In this document: in pieces, positions 13,316 through 22,482 of the stretch | Layout of the letters: each line of letters starts with the position of its first letter | Numbering within the stretch: the first letter of the stretch is position 1 | NCBI GenBank assembly: GCA_026392155.1 | Contig: JAPLCP010000192.1 | Location: 1-36,738 of the forward strand | Direction: 5' to 3' | Source of the DNA: Armatimonadota bacterium | GTDB lineage: Bacteria > Armatimonadota > Armatimonadia > Armatimonadales > Armatimonadaceae | DNA: 36,738 bases | Made by a program: the position numbers and the translations under genes | Notes under the pieces: generated by a model | The model's database searches: none | Seen by the model: only the letters and a program-made list of their open reading frames with translations | What the model was told of the DNA's origin: nothing

Positions 13316-15079
13316 CTACCCTGCAACACGGCTTGAAAGTGAGGCGTTGCTTCCGTCGTCCTCAGGTTGCTTGATCGGTAGGGTGAAGTAAGCAGTGGTT
13401 CCCTTACCCAGACCTTCCGACTCGGCCCACATGTCACCGTTGTGCACCTCGACAAAGTTCTTCACGAGAAACGCTCCGATTCCCGTTCCGTTGATGGAGC
13501 GGTTGTCGCGGTTGTCCGCGCGGGCGAACTTCTGGCCGAACTTCTGGAGGAACTCCGGGGTCATCCCTAGGCCCTTGTCGGAGATGGCGAACTGCACCGT
13601 GTTCTCGTCTTTCATAGTGACCTGCAGGTGCACCGGGCCACCATCCGGGGAGTACTTAAGCGAGTTACCTACTAGGTTGTGAAGGATCTGCTCGAACTTG
13701 TCACCGTCTGCCTCGATAATCTCAGGGACATCAGAGGCAATGTCGAAGTTCAGGGTGTGGTTGTCCTTCTTGTAGGTCGAGCCATTGTCAATCATGATCG
13801 CTTTTTTGACGAGCTCATGAAGCTCGATATTCTCAAAGTTGGGTAGCATCGAAGCACCCGCCTCGATACGGCTGACATTGAGCAGGTCATCAATCAGGCG
13901 CTTCAGGCGATCACACTCTTTATCTACGATGCCATAAAACTCAAGACGATCCTCGTGGGCGAACATCGTGCCGTCTTCGTCCATGAGAAGGGTGGAGATA
14001 AAGCCCTTGATCGAGGTCATTGGGGTGCGCAGCTCGTGGGAGACGGTGGAGACGAAGGCGGTCTTGAGCTTATCAATGTTCTTCAGTTCCGTGATATCGC
14101 TAAAGATTGCGGCGGTTCCGACCATGTCCCCGTTCTCGTTGCGCACGACGGTGGACTGAATCTGGAAGGTACGGGAGGCATCCTCCGCATCCGTGATGGT
14201 GACTTCTTCCTGAATATCGGTCTCATCGGCGAGAGCCTTCACCAGTACCGAGCGGACGATATCATCTTTAACGAGCTGATCGTAGGTGCGCACACCTAGG
14301 CTCTCAGTGGGAGCCAAGCCAAAGATGCGCCGCGCCGATGAGTTCATCTGCAAAACGCGCCCGTTACGGCCGATCATCACCAGCCCTGCGGTCAGGGCAT
14401 CGGTCATCTCGTGGAGCTGCTCTTTTTCCTCAACAACCTTACGGAACGTTGAGGCAGTGTTGATCACCGCAGCGGCGTTGCGCGACATACGATCCAGAAG
14501 TTGGACGTCTTCGTCAATAAAGACCCCCCCAAACTTCTTATTGAATACCCAGATCACCCCGATGACCTTGCGATCCACGACGGCATTGGTCTCTTCATCG
14601 CGCTTCTCCACGATCAGTGGCACAGAGATCCCGTTGCGAACCCCGATTTTTGCAAAGGCCTTGGAGTCCTCACGAATATCCGTCTCCGTATCATAGAGGA
14701 TCACAGATTTACTGGAGGAGTAGCAGACTCCTGAGGCCCCTTCGCCTTCCCCAAGACGAAAATCGTCCAGCTGCCCGTCTTCAAAACCGAGAGCAGGCTT
14801 ACCTGCATAGAGCTCCCGAGTCTCCGGATCGTGGATCATGAAGAGACACTTGCCTCCTTGCACGATCATTGCAATTCGGATCATCAGGCGCTTGAGGGTC
14901 TCTTCCAGCTCCGAAAGCTCCGCCGTGGGCTGGGCATTCTCGGTGGCAGTCTGAACCTTCTGGTTAAGCTCACGCACATTGCGTTCGAGCTGAACGACGG
15001 CCTGATTTTTCTGATTGAGCTCCGACTCCAAGTTGGCGATCTGAGCTTTGAGGGACTCGACGCTGTCGTCCAGGTTCAT
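13316..15079 (-). CDS. Cytosolic sensor histidine kinase: coiled coil, GAF, PAS, HisKA, HATPase
   Basis: The 587-residue product has no membrane segment, so it senses an internal signal. An N-terminal coiled coil (about 4-65, SLKAQIANLESELNQK) is followed by a GAF domain (about 70-225), a PAS domain (about 232-345, GLVMIGRNGRVLQMNSSARRIFG), a HisKA dimerisation domain with the phosphoacceptor in STVSHELRTPMTS (H348), and an ATPase domain with NLVGNSLKYSPDG, DKGLGM and GTGIGAF motifs. The ATG at 15079 is preferred because AAAGGA lies 11 nt upstream and the earlier in-frame sequence crosses the promoter hairpin. No response regulator is adjacent. It follows pilC on the same strand but has its own strong promoter at 15152-15181; a link to pilus control is an inference from position. 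Confidence 0.92.
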   Translation of the reverse strand: MNLDDSVESLKAQIANLESELNQKNQAVVQLERNVRELNQKVQTATENAQPTAELSELEETLKRLMIRIAMIVQGGKCLFMIHDPETRELYAGKPALGFEDGQLDDFRLGEGEGASGVCYSSSKSVILYDTETDIREDSKAFAKIGVRNGISVPLIVEKRDEETNAVVDRKVIGVIWVFNKKFGGVFIDEDVQLLDRMSRNAAAVINTASTFRKVVEEKEQLHEMTDALTAGLVMIGRNGRVLQMNSSARRIFGLAPTESLGVRTYDQLVKDDIVRSVLVKALADETDIQEEVTITDAEDASRTFQIQSTVVRNENGDMVGTAAIFSDITELKNIDKLKTAFVSTVSHELRTPMTSIKGFISTLLMDEDGTMFAHEDRLEFYGIVDKECDRLKRLIDDLLNVSRIEAGASMLPNFENIELHELVKKAIMIDNGSTYKKDNHTLNFDIASDVPEIIEADGDKFEQILHNLVGNSLKYSPDGGPVHLQVTMKDENTVQFAISDKGLGMTPEFLQKFGQKFARADNRDNRSINGTGIGAFLVKNFVEVHNGDMWAESEGLGKGTTAYFTLPIKQPEDDGSNASLSSRVAG

Positions 15080-15120
15080 CGAGGGCAGGGTCCTTTCATA
15101 CAATACAACAGAATATAGCA

Positions 15121-15144
15121 CGGCGCGGCAGAGCTGCCGCGCCG
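15121..15144 (-). other. GC-rich stem-loop at the predicted 5' end of the kinase mRNA
   Basis: Arms CGGCGCGGCAG (15121-15131) and its complement (15134-15144) form an 11-bp perfect stem with essentially no loop. It begins about where transcription from the promoter at 15152-15157 would start. It may protect the mRNA 5' end or be the terminator of the pilT-pilC transcript; no good T-run follows it. Confidence 0.5.
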
Positions 15145-15151
15145 GGACTAT

Positions 15152-15181
15152 AGTATACAACAACCTCCCCCATGCAGTCAA
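15152..15181 (-). promoter_or_regulatory. Sigma-70-type promoter for the histidine kinase
   Basis: On the minus strand TTGACT (15181-15176), an 18-nt spacer and TATACT (15157-15152). This is the best full -35/-10 pair I see in the window. The predicted 5' leader is about 65 nt and starts with a GC-rich stem-loop. Confidence 0.6.
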
Positions 15182-15226: not shown

Positions 15227-16441
15227 TTAGTGGATCTGGTTGATAATCGAGAACATCGGCCCCATGATAGAGATCACGATAAAGCCCACGATCACCCCAA
15301 GGAAAATAATCAAGATTGGCTCGATCAAGCTCGTTAGTGCCTTGACCGTGGCATCCACTTCCTGCTCGTAGAACTCGGCGACTTTGACCAGCATCTCCGA
15401 CATACGCCCTGTCTCTTCACCGATATCAATCATGTGAGTGACCATGGGCGGAAAGAGCCCAGACTTGACCAGCGGGGGCGAGAGGCGACTTCCTTCGCGC
15501 AACGCAGTCTTGGTCTCCTGGATCGCCTTGGTCAGAACCTCGTTACCCGCCGTCTCCGCCACGATCTCAATGGAACGCATCATGGGAACGCCAGAGCTCA
15601 ACAGAGTACCAAAAGTACGACAGAAGCGAGCCACTGAGAGCTTGAGGACGAGCTCTCCCATGATCGGAACCTTGAGCTTGAAGTAGTCTAACTTGTAGCG
15701 GCCCTCAGACGTTTTTGCATACTGCTTCAGGCCAATAAAAGCAAACAGAGGCGCAAAAACAAAGACATACCAGTTGTGCACCATGAAGTCCGAGATGCCA
15801 AAAAGGGCCTCGGTCATCGGGGGCATCTTCGCTTGCATGTCAGAGAACATCTGCTTAAACGTAGGCAAGATGAACATAAACATCGCAAACAAGATGATCA
15901 TCGCAAACACCAAGACGATCACCGGATAGGTCAGGGCAGACTTAACTTTCTGGCGGATCTCCTGCTCTTTCTCCAGAAACTGTGAGAGACGATCCAGAAT
16001 GGTATCAAGAATACCTCCGAGCTCGGCGGCGCGGATCATGTTGACATAGAGCTTCGAGAAACAGTTCGGGTGCTTGGCCAGTGACTCCCCAAGCGAGACA
16101 CCTGTCTGGACATCGCGCTTAATCACTCCTAGCGCCGCCTTGAGTGGTAGGTCTTTGGTCTGCTGCTCCAAAACATCCAGGCACTTGAGAACCGCAAGGC
16201 CCGCGTCTATCATGGTCGCAAACTGGCGTGAGAACACCACAAGCGACTGGAGCTTGGGTATCCCAACAGATTTCTTCGTCCCGATAGACATCAGCGCACT
16301 GGTCTTGTGCTCACTGATTCCCAAGACATGCAGGCGCTGCTCGTGCAGACGGCTCAGGACGGCTCCCTCAGACTCTGCTTCCATCCGACCTTTAACATTG
16401 TTGCCGGAGGTATCTATGACATCGTATACAAAAGTAGGCAT
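15227..16441 (-). CDS. pilC: Type IV pilus inner-membrane platform protein PilC
   Basis: The 404-residue length and sequence fit PilC/GspF, the inner-membrane platform that couples the pilus motor ATPases to pilin assembly and retraction. It opens with PTFVYDVIDTSGNNVKGRMEAES, typical of PilC. Two T2SSF repeats are seen (about 70-195 and 270-395), each followed by hydrophobic segments, the clearest being YPVIVLVFAMIILFAMFMFI; the C-terminus LIEPILIIFLGVIVGFIVIS is the last membrane segment. GEETGRMSEML and AAELGGILDTIL are typical of the repeats. It lies 6 nt after pilT on the same strand, and its start codon is next to a small hairpin that covers the pilT stop. No pilB or pilin genes are in the window. 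Confidence 0.95.
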   Translation of the reverse strand: MPTFVYDVIDTSGNNVKGRMEAESEGAVLSRLHEQRLHVLGISEHKTSALMSIGTKKSVGIPKLQSLVVFSRQFATMIDAGLAVLKCLDVLEQQTKDLPLKAALGVIKRDVQTGVSLGESLAKHPNCFSKLYVNMIRAAELGGILDTILDRLSQFLEKEQEIRQKVKSALTYPVIVLVFAMIILFAMFMFILPTFKQMFSDMQAKMPPMTEALFGISDFMVHNWYVFVFAPLFAFIGLKQYAKTSEGRYKLDYFKLKVPIMGELVLKLSVARFCRTFGTLLSSGVPMMRSIEIVAETAGNEVLTKAIQETKTALREGSRLSPPLVKSGLFPPMVTHMIDIGEETGRMSEMLVKVAEFYEQEVDATVKALTSLIEPILIIFLGVIVGFIVISIMGPMFSIINQIH

Positions 16442-16456
16442 GGAAGTTTAGCTTCC
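16442..16456 (-). promoter_or_regulatory. Hairpin at the pilT-pilC junction
   Basis: On the minus strand GGAAG and CTTCC form a 5-bp stem around CTAAA, spanning the pilT TAA stop and ending directly before the pilC ATG at 16441. Part of the purine-rich Shine-Dalgarno-like GGGAGG overlaps the stem, so ribosomes finishing pilT may be needed to open the pilC start. Confidence 0.35.
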
Positions 16457-17743
16457 TCCCTTCAAGTGGCGCATGAAGTTATCGCGGTCATTACAGCGGC
16501 TAGCTGCCTCCTCCATGGTAACCATGCCAGAGCGGTGAAGCTCCGCGAGGACTTTGTCCATCTGTTGCATTCCAAACTGTGAGCCGGTCTCGATGGAGCT
16601 CATGAGCTGGTGGCTCTTGCCTTCACGGATCAAGTTACGCACCGCAGCAGTGGCGACCATGATCTCAATGGAGGCAACACGTCCCCCCCCAACCATCGGC
16701 AGGAGCTGCTGGGCAATCACGGCCTGAAGGGAGCTGGCAAACTGAACACGGATCTGATCTTGCTGATCGGCAGGGAAGACATCGATCACACGGTCAACGG
16801 TCGCAGGGGCACTTCGGGTGTGGAGCGTCCCAAAGACTAAGTGACCTGTCTCAGCAAGTGTGAGAGCAGCGGCGATCGTTTCTTTGTCTCGCATCTCACC
16901 GACGAGGATAATATCAGGGTCTTCACGGAGAGCGGCGCGGATGGCGTTGCCAAAACTCTCGGAGTCTTGGCCAATCTCACGCTGGTTGACCATGGCGACT
17001 TTGTGATTGTGAATGTACTCAATCGGATCTTCCATCGTCAGGATGTGCAAGGGACGCTCGGAGTTGATCGCATCAATCATCGAGGCAATGGTCGTGGACT
17101 TACCCGATCCCGTTGGCCCCGTCACCAGGATCACCCCCGAGTGCTTCTTGGTGAGCTCTTTTAGGATCGGGGGAAGGCGGAGCGAGTCCAGCGAGGGAAT
17201 CTTGGCAGGGATCGCACGCATGGCGCACCCAACGGAGTGGCGCTGGCGGTAGACATTAAAACGGAAGCGCCCCACCCCGTGAACCCCATAGGAGAAGTCT
17301 AGCTCTTTGGTGCGCTCGTAGCGCTCGATCTGGTCGGAGAGCAAGATATCGTAAATAAGCCGCTGCGCCTCGCGGGGCGTGACCACCTCCCAGGGCGTGG
17401 GCGTGAGCTTGCCGTCAATACGAAGCATCGGGGGCAGGTTGACTGTGATATGGATATCAGAGGCTTTCACCTGCTGGCTGTAGCGCAAGATGTCATCAAT
17501 GTGGGTATCTGCCAAAGGCGTGACACTCGGAGAGGAGCGCACCTCGTCAAAGGTATCCGACCCAAGAGGACCTACTCCTACCATCCCTGGTGGTATCAGT
17601 AGTGCACCATCCTCAAGAAGCCCCTTAAGCATCTGATTGCTATCTAGTGACTGCGGTGCTGTTGGCACAGGCGTTCGCGCTGCCGAGTTCGTCGGCATCA
17701 GAGGTGCCAAGTCATTATCAGGGAGAATCGAGTTCATACTCAC
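16448..17743 (-). CDS. pilT: Type IV pilus retraction ATPase PilT with an N-terminal extension
   Basis: The hexameric ATPase that drives pilus retraction (twitching). The Walker A site is GPTGSGKST; the Asp box is ILTMEDPIEYIH; the Walker B site is ALREDPDIILVGEMRDKETI; the His box is GHLVFGTLHT. The C-terminal AVRNLIREGKSHQ is the PilT-type motif that separates it from PilB. PilT proteins are usually about 350 residues; this one has about 70 extra N-terminal residues rich in Pro, Ser, Thr and Gly before DDILRYSQQVKASDIH. Start: GTG at 17743 or ATG at 17737 (MNSILPD), two codons on; a GAGGAGA is too far upstream to decide. Divergent from the sigma-GGDEF gene and 6 nt ahead of pilC. Confidence 0.95.
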   Translation of the reverse strand: MSMNSILPDNDLAPLMPTNSAARTPVPTAPQSLDSNQMLKGLLEDGALLIPPGMVGVGPLGSDTFDEVRSSPSVTPLADTHIDDILRYSQQVKASDIHITVNLPPMLRIDGKLTPTPWEVVTPREAQRLIYDILLSDQIERYERTKELDFSYGVHGVGRFRFNVYRQRHSVGCAMRAIPAKIPSLDSLRLPPILKELTKKHSGVILVTGPTGSGKSTTIASMIDAINSERPLHILTMEDPIEYIHNHKVAMVNQREIGQDSESFGNAIRAALREDPDIILVGEMRDKETIAAALTLAETGHLVFGTLHTRSAPATVDRVIDVFPADQQDQIRVQFASSLQAVIAQQLLPMVGGGRVASIEIMVATAAVRNLIREGKSHQLMSSIETGSQFGMQQMDKVLAELHRSGMVTMEEAASRCNDRDNFMRHLKGGS

Positions 17744-17831
17744 AATTTTCGGATACGAACCGTATTCTCCTCAGGGAAAATAATTCCTGGAAAAATTAAC
17801 AGTCTCTGCCGACTATCCCAAATGTAAGCCT
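17744..17831. promoter_or_regulatory. Divergent promoter region of pilT and the sigma-GGDEF gene
   Basis: An 88-bp AT-richer region. It contains the inverted repeat ATACG-AAC-CGTAT (17753-17765) close to pilT, which could be an operator. No convincing -35/-10 pair is seen for either gene. Confidence 0.35.
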
Positions 17832-19136
17832 ATGTCTTCTCCTTTAGAAAAAACGGCTGCCATCCCTCAGGAAACCCTGCTGCGCTGGCTCCAAGAATAT
17901 GCCCGTCGGCGCGGCACGGGAGATGGTCGTTCCTCAGGCGACCTCCCCTTGCCTGCTCTCAAAGAGAAAATTGCTCGCGCACATGGTCCCCTCGTCGAGT
18001 CCGTGGCACGTAAGTTTTTGGGAACGGGTGAGCCCCTCGAAGATCTTGCGCAAGAAGGCTCTCTGGGGCTTCTCTCTGCTCTGGAGTACTACGATCCCAG
18101 CAAAGGAGTTCGTTTCTCCACCTACGCCACGCACTTTATCAGCGGTGCCATCCGCCACTTTTTGCGCGACCGCAGCCGGATGATCCGCGAGCCCGCCTGG
18201 CTCCAAGAGACCTCTAGTCGCATCGAACGCGCCATTGAAGCTCTCACCGCTCAGCTTGAGCGTGAGCCCACCCCAAGCGAGATCGCTGCCGCCGCCACCA
18301 TTCCAGTTGAGACAGTCGAGGAGGCCCTAGCATCACGCAATACCTTTCGCGTGCTCTCCTACGACGAAGTCGCGCAAGAGGAGAACAGTGACACTACGCT
18401 GGATCGCCTTGAGCCGGGCGGCGCATCGCTCATGGCCGTCCATGTGGAGAACCGTATTGTCCTTCGCGAGACCATGCAGCGCCTGCGTCCTTTTGAGCAG
18501 CAAGTGATCTATGAGTTCTACTTCCGTAATCTAACCCAGACCGAGATCGCCACGAAGCTAGGCGTGTCGTGCAACTATGTCTCGGTCACCTTGCGTAAAG
18601 CTGTCGAGCGCCTTGGCAAGCTCATGGGCGAGGCAGAAGCCTATGACCGCCACCGCCGTCGTGAGTCCAGCGTCCTTGATCCGCTCACGGGCCTCTACAC
18701 CACCGAGATCCTCCACGCCCGCCTCAATGAGGCCGTCTCACGAACCGTGCGTGCGGGGATGCCTCTCTCCCTGATCCAGTTTCAGCTTCTGGGGCTCCCC
18801 CTGCAAAGCAGGGCACGCGATGAAGTCTTTGAGCAGTGTGGCAATCGCCTACGCTCCTCGATCCGTCGCATGGACATGGCAGGGCGAGGGGAGGGAGACT
18901 ATCTTCTGGCAATTCTCCCCAACACAGGCCCACAGGTTGAGCTCGCCGCAAACCGTCTGATTGGGGTTTTAGAAGACACGAGGCAGAGTGTCCATCGCTC
19001 GCTGCGTGTGGTCGCCGGAACCGCTTGGCACCCCCAGGAGGCACGCACTGCGGAGGATCTCCTGCGAGAGGCTCAGCGCTCCCTTGATGCGGCGCTCCAA
19101 AAAGAGAGCCGTGCAGGCAACGCGAAAGCTGCCTGA
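17832..19136 (+). CDS. Sigma-70 family factor fused to a degenerate GGDEF-like domain
   Basis: A 434-residue protein with two clear parts. Residues 51-118 are sigma region 2 (VARKFLGTGEPLEDLAQEGS, GVRFSTYATHFISGAIRHFLRD), 122-180 region 3, and 212-265 region 4 with a helix-turn-helix (LTQTEIATKLGVSCNYVSVT); this matches a group 3 (SigB/SigF/SigG-like) factor. Residues 281-425 start with DPLTGLY (D283), the standard opening of GGDEF diguanylate-cyclase domains, and keep the overall pattern (RDEVFEQCGNRLRSSIRRMD). In place of GGDEF there is GEGDY (353-357), so it should not make c-di-GMP but might bind a nucleotide or protein. It is divergent from pilT. I infer a sigma factor gated by a second-messenger-like domain, possibly acting on pilus genes. 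Confidence 0.88.
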   Translation: MSSPLEKTAAIPQETLLRWLQEYARRRGTGDGRSSGDLPLPALKEKIARAHGPLVESVARKFLGTGEPLEDLAQEGSLGLLSALEYYDPSKGVRFSTYATHFISGAIRHFLRDRSRMIREPAWLQETSSRIERAIEALTAQLEREPTPSEIAAAATIPVETVEEALASRNTFRVLSYDEVAQEENSDTTLDRLEPGGASLMAVHVENRIVLRETMQRLRPFEQQVIYEFYFRNLTQTEIATKLGVSCNYVSVTLRKAVERLGKLMGEAEAYDRHRRRESSVLDPLTGLYTTEILHARLNEAVSRTVRAGMPLSLIQFQLLGLPLQSRARDEVFEQCGNRLRSSIRRMDMAGRGEGDYLLAILPNTGPQVELAANRLIGVLEDTRQSVHRSLRVVAGTAWHPQEARTAEDLLREAQRSLDAALQKESRAGNAKAA

Positions 19137-20517: not shown

Positions 20518-22482
20518 ATGGAAACCCCAACGCCGATTGCCCGTATCCGTGCCGATGCGAAGTCCCTAACCTTTACGATTCGCCCCAATCACCAAGTGCC
20601 ACGCCAGCTCTTTGGTCAGGGTGTCGGAGCGGCGGCGTGGGAGTCGCTGACGGTTGAGCGCGTGGCGGGAAAAAGCTTCACTCTGCCTCGGTTTGATAGC
20701 GTCGGACGAGATCGGCTGTTCTGGCGCTTTCGCAGCAGTGAGAGCGAGACCGCGCAGTGGGTGACGGAGCTGGCAGACACGGCGACGCGGACAAACCCGC
20801 TGCCTTGGCCCAAGAGCATCAAAGGCGTCCAGTGTGTCGTGGACCGCGCCGATGCCATGGCGCTGGGCGCTAGGCATGTCGGGATGAATTTAAGTATCCG
20901 CGAGGTGCTTCAGCCCGCCATCGGCGGCCCCTATGGCGGTCCGGTTGAGTTTATGGACGTGGACGGTGAGAAGATTCCGCTGGCCGCAGGAGTGCTCGCC
21001 CGCTACGACGATGAAGTCCGGGCGTTTACCCAGGCGGGGATTCTGGTGACGGTGATCTTTCTCAACTACTTCCCACGCGATGCCGCCGACGGCGACCTGC
21101 TGATCCACCCGCACTGCGACAAGAAAGGCGCGGCCAACCCCCTCTCGGCCTTTAACCTGAGCAACCCCAAGAGCGAGCGGCTCTACCGGGGGCTCTTGCA
21201 GTTTCTTGCCAAGCGCTGGACGGAACATGAGGGGCGCTTCGGACGGATCGGGGGCTTTATTATCGGCAACGAGGTCCAGAGCCACTGGCACTGGTACAAC
21301 CTCGGGAAAGCGTCACCCGAGACCGTGGTGCGCGAGTACGCCGATGCGCTGCGCCTCGCCTGGCTCGCCGTAAAAAGCGTCCACCGTGAGCTGAGGGTCT
21401 ATGTCTCGATGGACTACTACTGGACCGACCGCCACGAAGCGCCAGATCGGACCATGCCTGGACGCCAGCTCGTGGATGGCCTTAACGCGCTCACCAAGGC
21501 CGAGGGGGACTTCGACTGGCACGTCGCGCACCACCCCTACCCACAGGGACTCTTCGATCCGGTATTCTGGGACGACGAAGACGCAGGCATGGGCTTTGAC
21601 ACACCGATTATCACCTTCAAGAACCTCGAAGTGCTCCTCGCCTATCTCAATACGCCCGGCCAAAAAGTCAAAAACGCCGCGCGGCGGGTGATCCTCTCGG
21701 AGCAGGGTTTTAACTGCAAGGGCAGCGGCGAGCAGGCCGAGAGAATCCAAGCCGCGGCCTATGCCTACGCCTTCGAGAAAGTGCGCCACATGCCCGGCAT
21801 CGATGCCTTTATTCTCCACCGCCACCAGGATCACCCCGCAGAAGGCGGCCTCAAGCTGGGCCTGCGCGATCTGGAAGGCCGCCGTCGCCCGATGTGGAGT
21901 GTCTGCCAGAAAGCCGAGACGCCCGAGTGGGCCGCCACCATCGCGCCACTCCTGCCACTCACAGGCCTAAAAAGCTGGGACGACGCCAAGCCCACCACCA
22001 AGCGTATCGGGGAGCGCTCCGGGGTCGGGGTGGAGGCGCTCTATCCGGGGGAAGTGGTCTGGGACGGGATCAAGCAGCTCTGGACCGCCACGCCCACCAA
22101 CTGCCTCGACTGGCGGCAGGCCAAGGAGAAGACCAGCACCGGTAAGCGCGTCCCCGGCCTTTTCCAGCACCCGAAAGCCATCGGAGCCGCCGAGGCTAGT
22201 TTTCCTATCACTCTCCCCGGGGCCGCACGCCTGACGCTCCGTTTCGAGGTACTCAACAGCGCCAAAGAGCCCGCCCCAAGTGGCATCACCTTCGGCGTCC
22301 GCATGGATGGCAAAGAAATCTGGAGCACCAAAGTCACCGACTGCGGCAAGCCCCACCCGCACGCGCTGGACCTCACGCCCTACGCTGGCCGCACGGTTCA
22401 GCTCACCTTCACCACCGATGCCAACGGAAAAGAATCCTACTGCTGGGCCACCTGGCTCGCCCCCGCTATTCTGGCTGGATAG
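20518..22482 (+). CDS. DUF5722-like glycoside hydrolase with a C-terminal carbohydrate-binding-like domain
   Basis: The 654-residue product has three parts. Residues 1-85 form a beta domain. Residues about 95-480 form a clan-A type TIM barrel: GARHVGMNLSIREVL, a likely acid/base Glu in FIIGNEVQSHWHWYN (E252), WHVAHHPYPQGLFDP, and a likely nucleophile Glu in RRVILSEQGFNCKG (E395), then FILHRHQDHPAEGGLKLGL. I recognise this layout as DUF5722; substrate is unknown. Residues about 500-654 resemble a galactose-binding-like fold with a closing ALDLTPYAGRTVQLTFTTD. No signal peptide is visible, which is odd for a polysaccharide hydrolase. The 3' end overlaps the convergent ACT gene by 17 bp. Confidence 0.8.
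   Translation: METPTPIARIRADAKSLTFTIRPNHQVPRQLFGQGVGAAAWESLTVERVAGKSFTLPRFDSVGRDRLFWRFRSSESETAQWVTELADTATRTNPLPWPKSIKGVQCVVDRADAMALGARHVGMNLSIREVLQPAIGGPYGGPVEFMDVDGEKIPLAAGVLARYDDEVRAFTQAGILVTVIFLNYFPRDAADGDLLIHPHCDKKGAANPLSAFNLSNPKSERLYRGLLQFLAKRWTEHEGRFGRIGGFIIGNEVQSHWHWYNLGKASPETVVREYADALRLAWLAVKSVHRELRVYVSMDYYWTDRHEAPDRTMPGRQLVDGLNALTKAEGDFDWHVAHHPYPQGLFDPVFWDDEDAGMGFDTPIITFKNLEVLLAYLNTPGQKVKNAARRVILSEQGFNCKGSGEQAERIQAAAYAYAFEKVRHMPGIDAFILHRHQDHPAEGGLKLGLRDLEGRRRPMWSVCQKAETPEWAATIAPLLPLTGLKSWDDAKPTTKRIGERSGVGVEALYPGEVVWDGIKQLWTATPTNCLDWRQAKEKTSTGKRVPGLFQHPKAIGAAEASFPITLPGAARLTLRFEVLNSAKEPAPSGITFGVRMDGKEIWSTKVTDCGKPHPHALDLTPYAGRTVQLTFTTDANGKESYCWATWLAPAILAG

Follow-up and report, generated by a model that had tools for sequence, protein, structure and literature searches.

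A sigma factor with a fused degenerate GGDEF domain beside type IV pilus genes: a probable c-di-GMP-gated regulator in Armatimonadota

The window, by which we mean the whole 36,738-nt stretch of DNA analysed (Armatimonadota bacterium, GenBank assembly GCA_026392155.1, contig JAPLCP010000192.1), carries a gene in which a sigma-70 factor is fused to a degenerate GGDEF domain (Table 1). Its divergent neighbour is pilT, which is followed by pilC and by the gene of a GAF-PAS histidine kinase. The preliminary description had placed an 88-bp region between the fusion gene and pilT, and this is correct, with pilT starting at position 17743. Histidine kinase homologs also adjoin the pil and sigma genes at two other loci of the phylum (L038 and L067), so the kinase may share a regulatory unit with them. 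On the far side of the fusion gene, positions 20518-22482 (+) encode a 654-aa protein that consists mainly of DUF5722 (E 1.5e-104).

Table 1. Features of the sigma factor–GGDEF locus, in window coordinates
Feature	Position	Strand	Evidence
Histidine kinase gene (GAF-PAS), after pilC	13316..15181	-	PF02518, PF00512, PF08448, PF13185
pilC, pilus inner-membrane platform gene	15227..16441	-	PF00482, E 1.5e-64
pilT, type IV pilus ATPase gene, divergent neighbour	16448..17743	-	PF00437, E 8e-43
Candidate promoter of the sigma gene, GGAAA-N14-GCCGACTAT (low confidence)	17789..17816	+	Similar element in several family genomes
Sigma factor–GGDEF fusion gene	17832..19136	+	ORF, 434 aa, ATG start; Pfam; orthologs in the phylum
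Sigma-70 region 2, residues 48-116	17973..18179	+	Pfam PF04542, E 5.6e-21
Sigma-70 region 3, residues 126-185	18207..18386	+	Pfam PF04539, E 1.2e-11
Sigma-70 region 4, residues 215-261	18474..18614	+	Pfam PF04545, E 1.7e-9
Single long helix, residues 247-278, from region-4 recognition helix to GGDEF domain	18570..18665	+	AlphaFold2 secondary structure
Degenerate GGDEF domain, residues 281-425	18672..19106	+	PF00990, E 1.2e-12 (whole protein), 9e-14 (domain alone)
R304, equivalent to PleD R313; secondary I-site arginine, as WspR R198	18741..18743	+	111/111 homologs
I-site motif R345-R-M-D348, equivalent to PleD R359xxD362	18864..18875	+	R345 and D348 each 110/110 homologs
Lost active site EGDYL, residues 354-358, for GG(D/E)EF	18891..18905	+	Gapless alignment to PleD; GGDEF-like motif in 0/111 homologs
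R375, equivalent to PleD R390; I-site	18954..18956	+	108/110 homologs

The sigma part of the protein is complete, as had been described, with PF04542, PF04539 and PF04545 (regions 2, 3 and 4) all scoring above their curated Pfam cut-offs; the same holds for the GGDEF profile. The earlier assignment was to group 3. All three regions are present and TIGR02980 (SigBFG) is the top NCBIfam match (E 1.6e-50), yet its 171.9 bits fall below the family cut-off of 234.35, and we therefore describe the protein as a group 3-like sigma factor rather than a standard SigB, SigF or SigG. It also falls outside the FliA/WhiG family as defined by TIGR02479, at 112.9 bits versus a cut-off of 189.6. Within the recognition helix of region 4, residues S246, N248, Y249 and S251 are invariant among the homologs.

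The protein was modelled with AlphaFold2 using 81 aligned homologs as input. The mean pLDDT is 87, reaching 92-98 in the core of the C-terminal domain, while the pTM of 0.48 means that the model does not fix the placement of the sigma and GGDEF domains with respect to each other. Residues 280-425 match solved GGDEF domains with a Z of 21.3 and an rmsd of 1.7 Å over 145 residues (VIA-align 2), and c-di-GMP-bound PleD is matched at Z > 20 (VIA-align 2). The model and the structural comparison together identify the C-terminal fold as GGDEF and rule out an unrelated fold after residue 280. The linker between region 4 and the GGDEF domain groups at 25-26, 30 and 35-36 residues among the homologs; a clean heptad series was considered for it and rejected, as these lengths do not fit one.

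The DPLTGLY motif noted earlier at the start of the domain is present at residues 283-289. The active site had been read as GEGDY in place of GGDEF; this reading is shifted by one residue, as gapless alignment to PleD and SiaD sets E354-G355-D356-Y357-L358 on GG(D/E)EF. Q318 occupies the place of PleD D327, and S326 that of PleD N335. Among 111 homologs the positions of PleD D327 (metal), K332, N335 (guanine), E370 and E371 are variable, and none of the 111 non-identical homologs aligned has a GGDEF-like motif. Judged by its sequence, the domain lacks what an active diguanylate cyclase requires, that is, GG(D/E)EF and the metal and guanine ligands. GTP binding has precedents among degenerate GGDEF domains, and the window protein still has G355 and D356; the domain might be imagined to sense a guanine nucleotide, GTP or another, at an active site that has been remodelled. 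The variability of the metal- and guanine-ligand positions and the loss of the motif throughout the homologs speak against this, and we regard it as very improbable; the ligand is likely c-di-GMP, bound at the I-site, rather than GTP at the active site.

The I-site was examined by verifying the PleD residues against the PDB and then aligning them with the 111 non-identical homologs, in which they are conserved almost throughout (Table 1). The one case among the 111 in which R345 and D348 are missing is a frameshifted reading (L055): its apparent truncation is a frameshift within the domain, and RxxD is intact in the other frame. R297 is likewise invariant in this set but varies among remoter homologs. 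The 22 full domains of greatest divergence all keep R304, and 20 of them keep RxxD, the two broken motifs being RxxN (G210) and QxxD (G003). The R375 equivalent (PleD R390) is lost from two homologs (L239 and L244, in G132 and G133) that keep RxxD and R304, a possible sign of relaxed c-di-GMP sensing; both genomes are 1.5 Mb in size and have one canonical GGDEF protein each. As a control, we took 17 canonical GGDEF domains from the genome to which the window belongs, where the active site is present in 16, RxxD in 11 and the full set of four I-site residues in only 4. Read from these alignments, the domain is an inverted GGDEF, its active site lost and its I-site kept, whereas canonical cyclases of this genome show the opposite. 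The sequence signature of a PelD-type I-site receptor, namely R345, D348 and R375 together with a lost active site, is present, and by homology with PelD, which uses the same residue set, these residues are predicted to bind c-di-GMP. Since the catalytic residues are gone and those of the I-site are kept, c-di-GMP is likely read directly by the sigma factor.

The fusion is widespread in the phylum. A whole-genome survey of 291 Armatimonadota genomes at a threshold of E 1e-40 returned a match in 192, a count that includes sigma factors of family f12 that have no GGDEF domain; the fusion is thus present in at most 188 of the 291. A genome of the same genus (G008) carries it at 74% identity, so that the fusion does recur in a close relative as well as more widely. 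Scanning GTDB contigs with the single protein gave no match, while the alignment as query returned 80 loci, for which Armatimonadota is the only phylum named; they include Chthonomonadales, Fimbriimonadales, Armatimonadaceae and others. In family f12, the closest sigma factors (L251, L252 and L253, in G063, G060 and G061) have no GGDEF domain and end in a short basic tail, and their genes are distant from pil genes; they could be a paralog, the unfused ancestor or the product of domain loss. In family f3 (L254 and L246, in G002 and G003), the C-terminal domain lies below Pfam recognition as GGDEF, with QxxD in G003, and both genomes are rich in cyclases.

An assembly artefact was considered as well, and is ruled out by the presence of the fusion in relatives across the phylum, several of the fusion-bearing genomes being single contigs. 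The lost active site and the frameshift in L055 are what a functionless, decaying remnant might show, but the L055 domain reads on with its RxxD motif, and the fusion persists over many families at 33-45% identity with its invariant residues. To a remnant or an artefactual fusion we give almost no credence.

The presence of the fusion also tracks the set of cyclases that a genome encodes. Canonical GGDEF proteins were identified with PF00990 at E 1e-20 in the 291 genomes and counted up to 12 per genome, which gave a median of 6 in genomes with a sigma–GGDEF match versus 1 in those without. The fusion occurs in none of the 27 genomes, from 13 families, that lack a canonical GGDEF protein. Of 15 families that mix genomes with and without the fusion, 13 have a lower mean GGDEF count in the genomes that lack it and 2 show a tie (sign test p 0.004, with counts that ignore the tree and with noise added by genome incompleteness). 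There are, on the other hand, 16 genomes at least 90% complete with at least 3 GGDEF proteins in which the fusion was not detected. Degenerate GGDEF domains can work through protein contacts, and a histidine kinase gene adjoins the pil genes; the domain could then be a structural or protein-interaction module that binds no nucleotide and serves in dimerisation or in docking a partner, such as a cyclase or the pathway of the neighbouring histidine kinase. The association with the cyclase repertoire argues against such a module, as does the nature of the near-invariant residues, which are the I-site set and form no surface patch of another character; we hold it to be distinctly unlikely, and direct sensing of c-di-GMP remains our preferred reading.

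As for the output, the genomic context points to type IV pili. Among 99 non-redundant loci with upstream sequence, pilC lies directly 5' of the sigma gene on the same strand in 67, mostly with a spacing of at most 200 bp and often with pilB/pilT-type ATPase genes further upstream. The divergent arrangement with pilT-pilC, as in the window, occurs at 6 loci, bringing the pil-linked total to 73 of 99, and 26 lie away from pil genes. Within g56, a genus-level group, 10 of the 11 genomes with the fusion also have a close PilT homolog, versus 0 of the 9 that lack the fusion. The preliminary proposal of a sensor-domain sigma factor linked to the pilus gains support from the conservation of the I-site and from these 73 pil-linked loci.

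We also scanned for a regulon with the pattern GGAAA-N14-GCCGACTAT, which had been derived from the same upstream sites on which it was scored. The window's own genome and seven relatives gave 34 matches versus 10 for a reversed-pattern control, but these had no pil specificity in the eight genomes: apart from the sigma gene, the matches stand before unrelated genes or inside genes. Because of this, and given the circular origin of the pattern, no regulon is claimed. A FliA-like element, GGWRA-N14-GCCGACWAT, stands before the sigma gene (17789-17816, +) and also, on another contig (G000 contig C95:27881-27908), before a 217-aa gene of unknown function. The scan, in which no regulon emerged and promoter-like matches preceded unrelated genes, and the 26 loci away from pil genes would both suit a sigma factor that senses c-di-GMP and yet drives an adhesion, matrix or stress programme, its place in the pil cluster serving to couple its own expression. 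This we consider unlikely, as adjacency to pilC is conserved over much of the phylum, the fusion and PilT are lost together in group g56, and pilA1 of Synechocystis is transcribed by SigF, itself a group 3 sigma factor (PMC8546353). The pil linkage, the co-occurrence with PilT, the SigF precedent and the action of RsiG–WhiG at pilus promoters of Rubrobacter make a pilus regulon our best guess for the output.

Taken together, we think it probable that the gene product is a group 3 sigma factor gated by c-di-GMP as a one-component system and serving a type IV pilus programme, with the GGDEF domain as a receptor and not an enzyme. In such a protein, one GGDEF domain would contact an intercalated c-di-GMP dimer through R345xxD348 and R375 and a second one would contact it through R304, so that the ligand bridges two protomers. 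Helix 247-278, which is continuous, would carry the change on binding to region 4. When c-di-GMP is high, the sigma factor would most likely be kept from core RNA polymerase or from its promoters, and at low c-di-GMP it would be released and the type IV pilus genes turned on. We prefer sequestration at high c-di-GMP because I-site bridging locks a cyclase in its inactive form and because c-di-GMP keeps WhiG inactive together with RsiG; the opposite sign, in which c-di-GMP activates the sigma factor, is possible. Whether the whole phylum holds an ancient one-component sigma factor of this kind, which binds c-di-GMP through the I-site of a fused dead cyclase domain, dimerises on a c-di-GMP dimer and so directly switches RNA polymerase onto or off a type IV pilus regulon without an anti-sigma factor, is a broader proposition on which we are evenly divided.

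Second messengers are known to reach sigma factors through partner proteins. If our reading is true, no path from messenger to promoter choice would be shorter than a sigma factor that carries a c-di-GMP receptor itself, and the phylum would hold a further c-di-GMP sigma switch linked to type IV pili, the second after RsiG–WhiG of Rubrobacter and built independently of it. It would also offer a testable regulator of surface life for the little-studied Armatimonadota. The domain, which has lost its active site and retained its I-site, is a ready test case, within a single polypeptide, for how binding at an I-site can drive an output beyond cyclase inhibition. In the open-access literature we found no report of a sigma–GGDEF fusion or of a sigma factor that binds c-di-GMP by itself, and it appears that the parts are known and their combination is new.

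Each part has a counterpart in a described system. In PelD, a degenerate GGDEF domain binds c-di-GMP with a KD near 100 nM, and mutation of R363, D366 or R395 abolishes binding (PMC7112168). The window domain resembles it in the dead active site and in the RxxD motif with a downstream arginine, residues that bind c-di-GMP in PelD, but PelD is a GAF-GGDEF protein without sigma regions that controls polysaccharide synthesis after translation. The RxxD motif and second-domain arginine are also shared with the I-site of WspR and PleD, where an intercalated c-di-GMP dimer bridges two GGDEF domains; R242 and R198 of WspR bind c-di-GMP between domains (PMC2270323). Unlike the window domain, however, WspR and PleD are active cyclases and use the I-site for product inhibition. 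Cyanobacterial SigF shares the group 3 character, regions 2, 3 and 4 and the link to type IV pili, and has no fused GGDEF domain described. The nearest functional relative is RsiG–(c-di-GMP)2–WhiG, in which c-di-GMP controls the pilus sigma factor WhiG of Rubrobacter through RsiG at pilus promoters (PMC8325347). According to its authors, no other sigma/anti-sigma complex is known to be a target of c-di-GMP, and RsiG, with its motif E(X)3S(X)2R(X)3Q(X)3D, is reported only from Actinobacteria (PMC8325347). Both there and, as we propose, here, an alternative sigma factor comes under the control of a c-di-GMP dimer, with type IV pilus genes among the targets in Rubrobacter; but whereas in that system a separate coiled-coil anti-sigma factor, RsiG, mainly binds the c-di-GMP, in the window protein a degenerate GGDEF domain is fused to the sigma factor.
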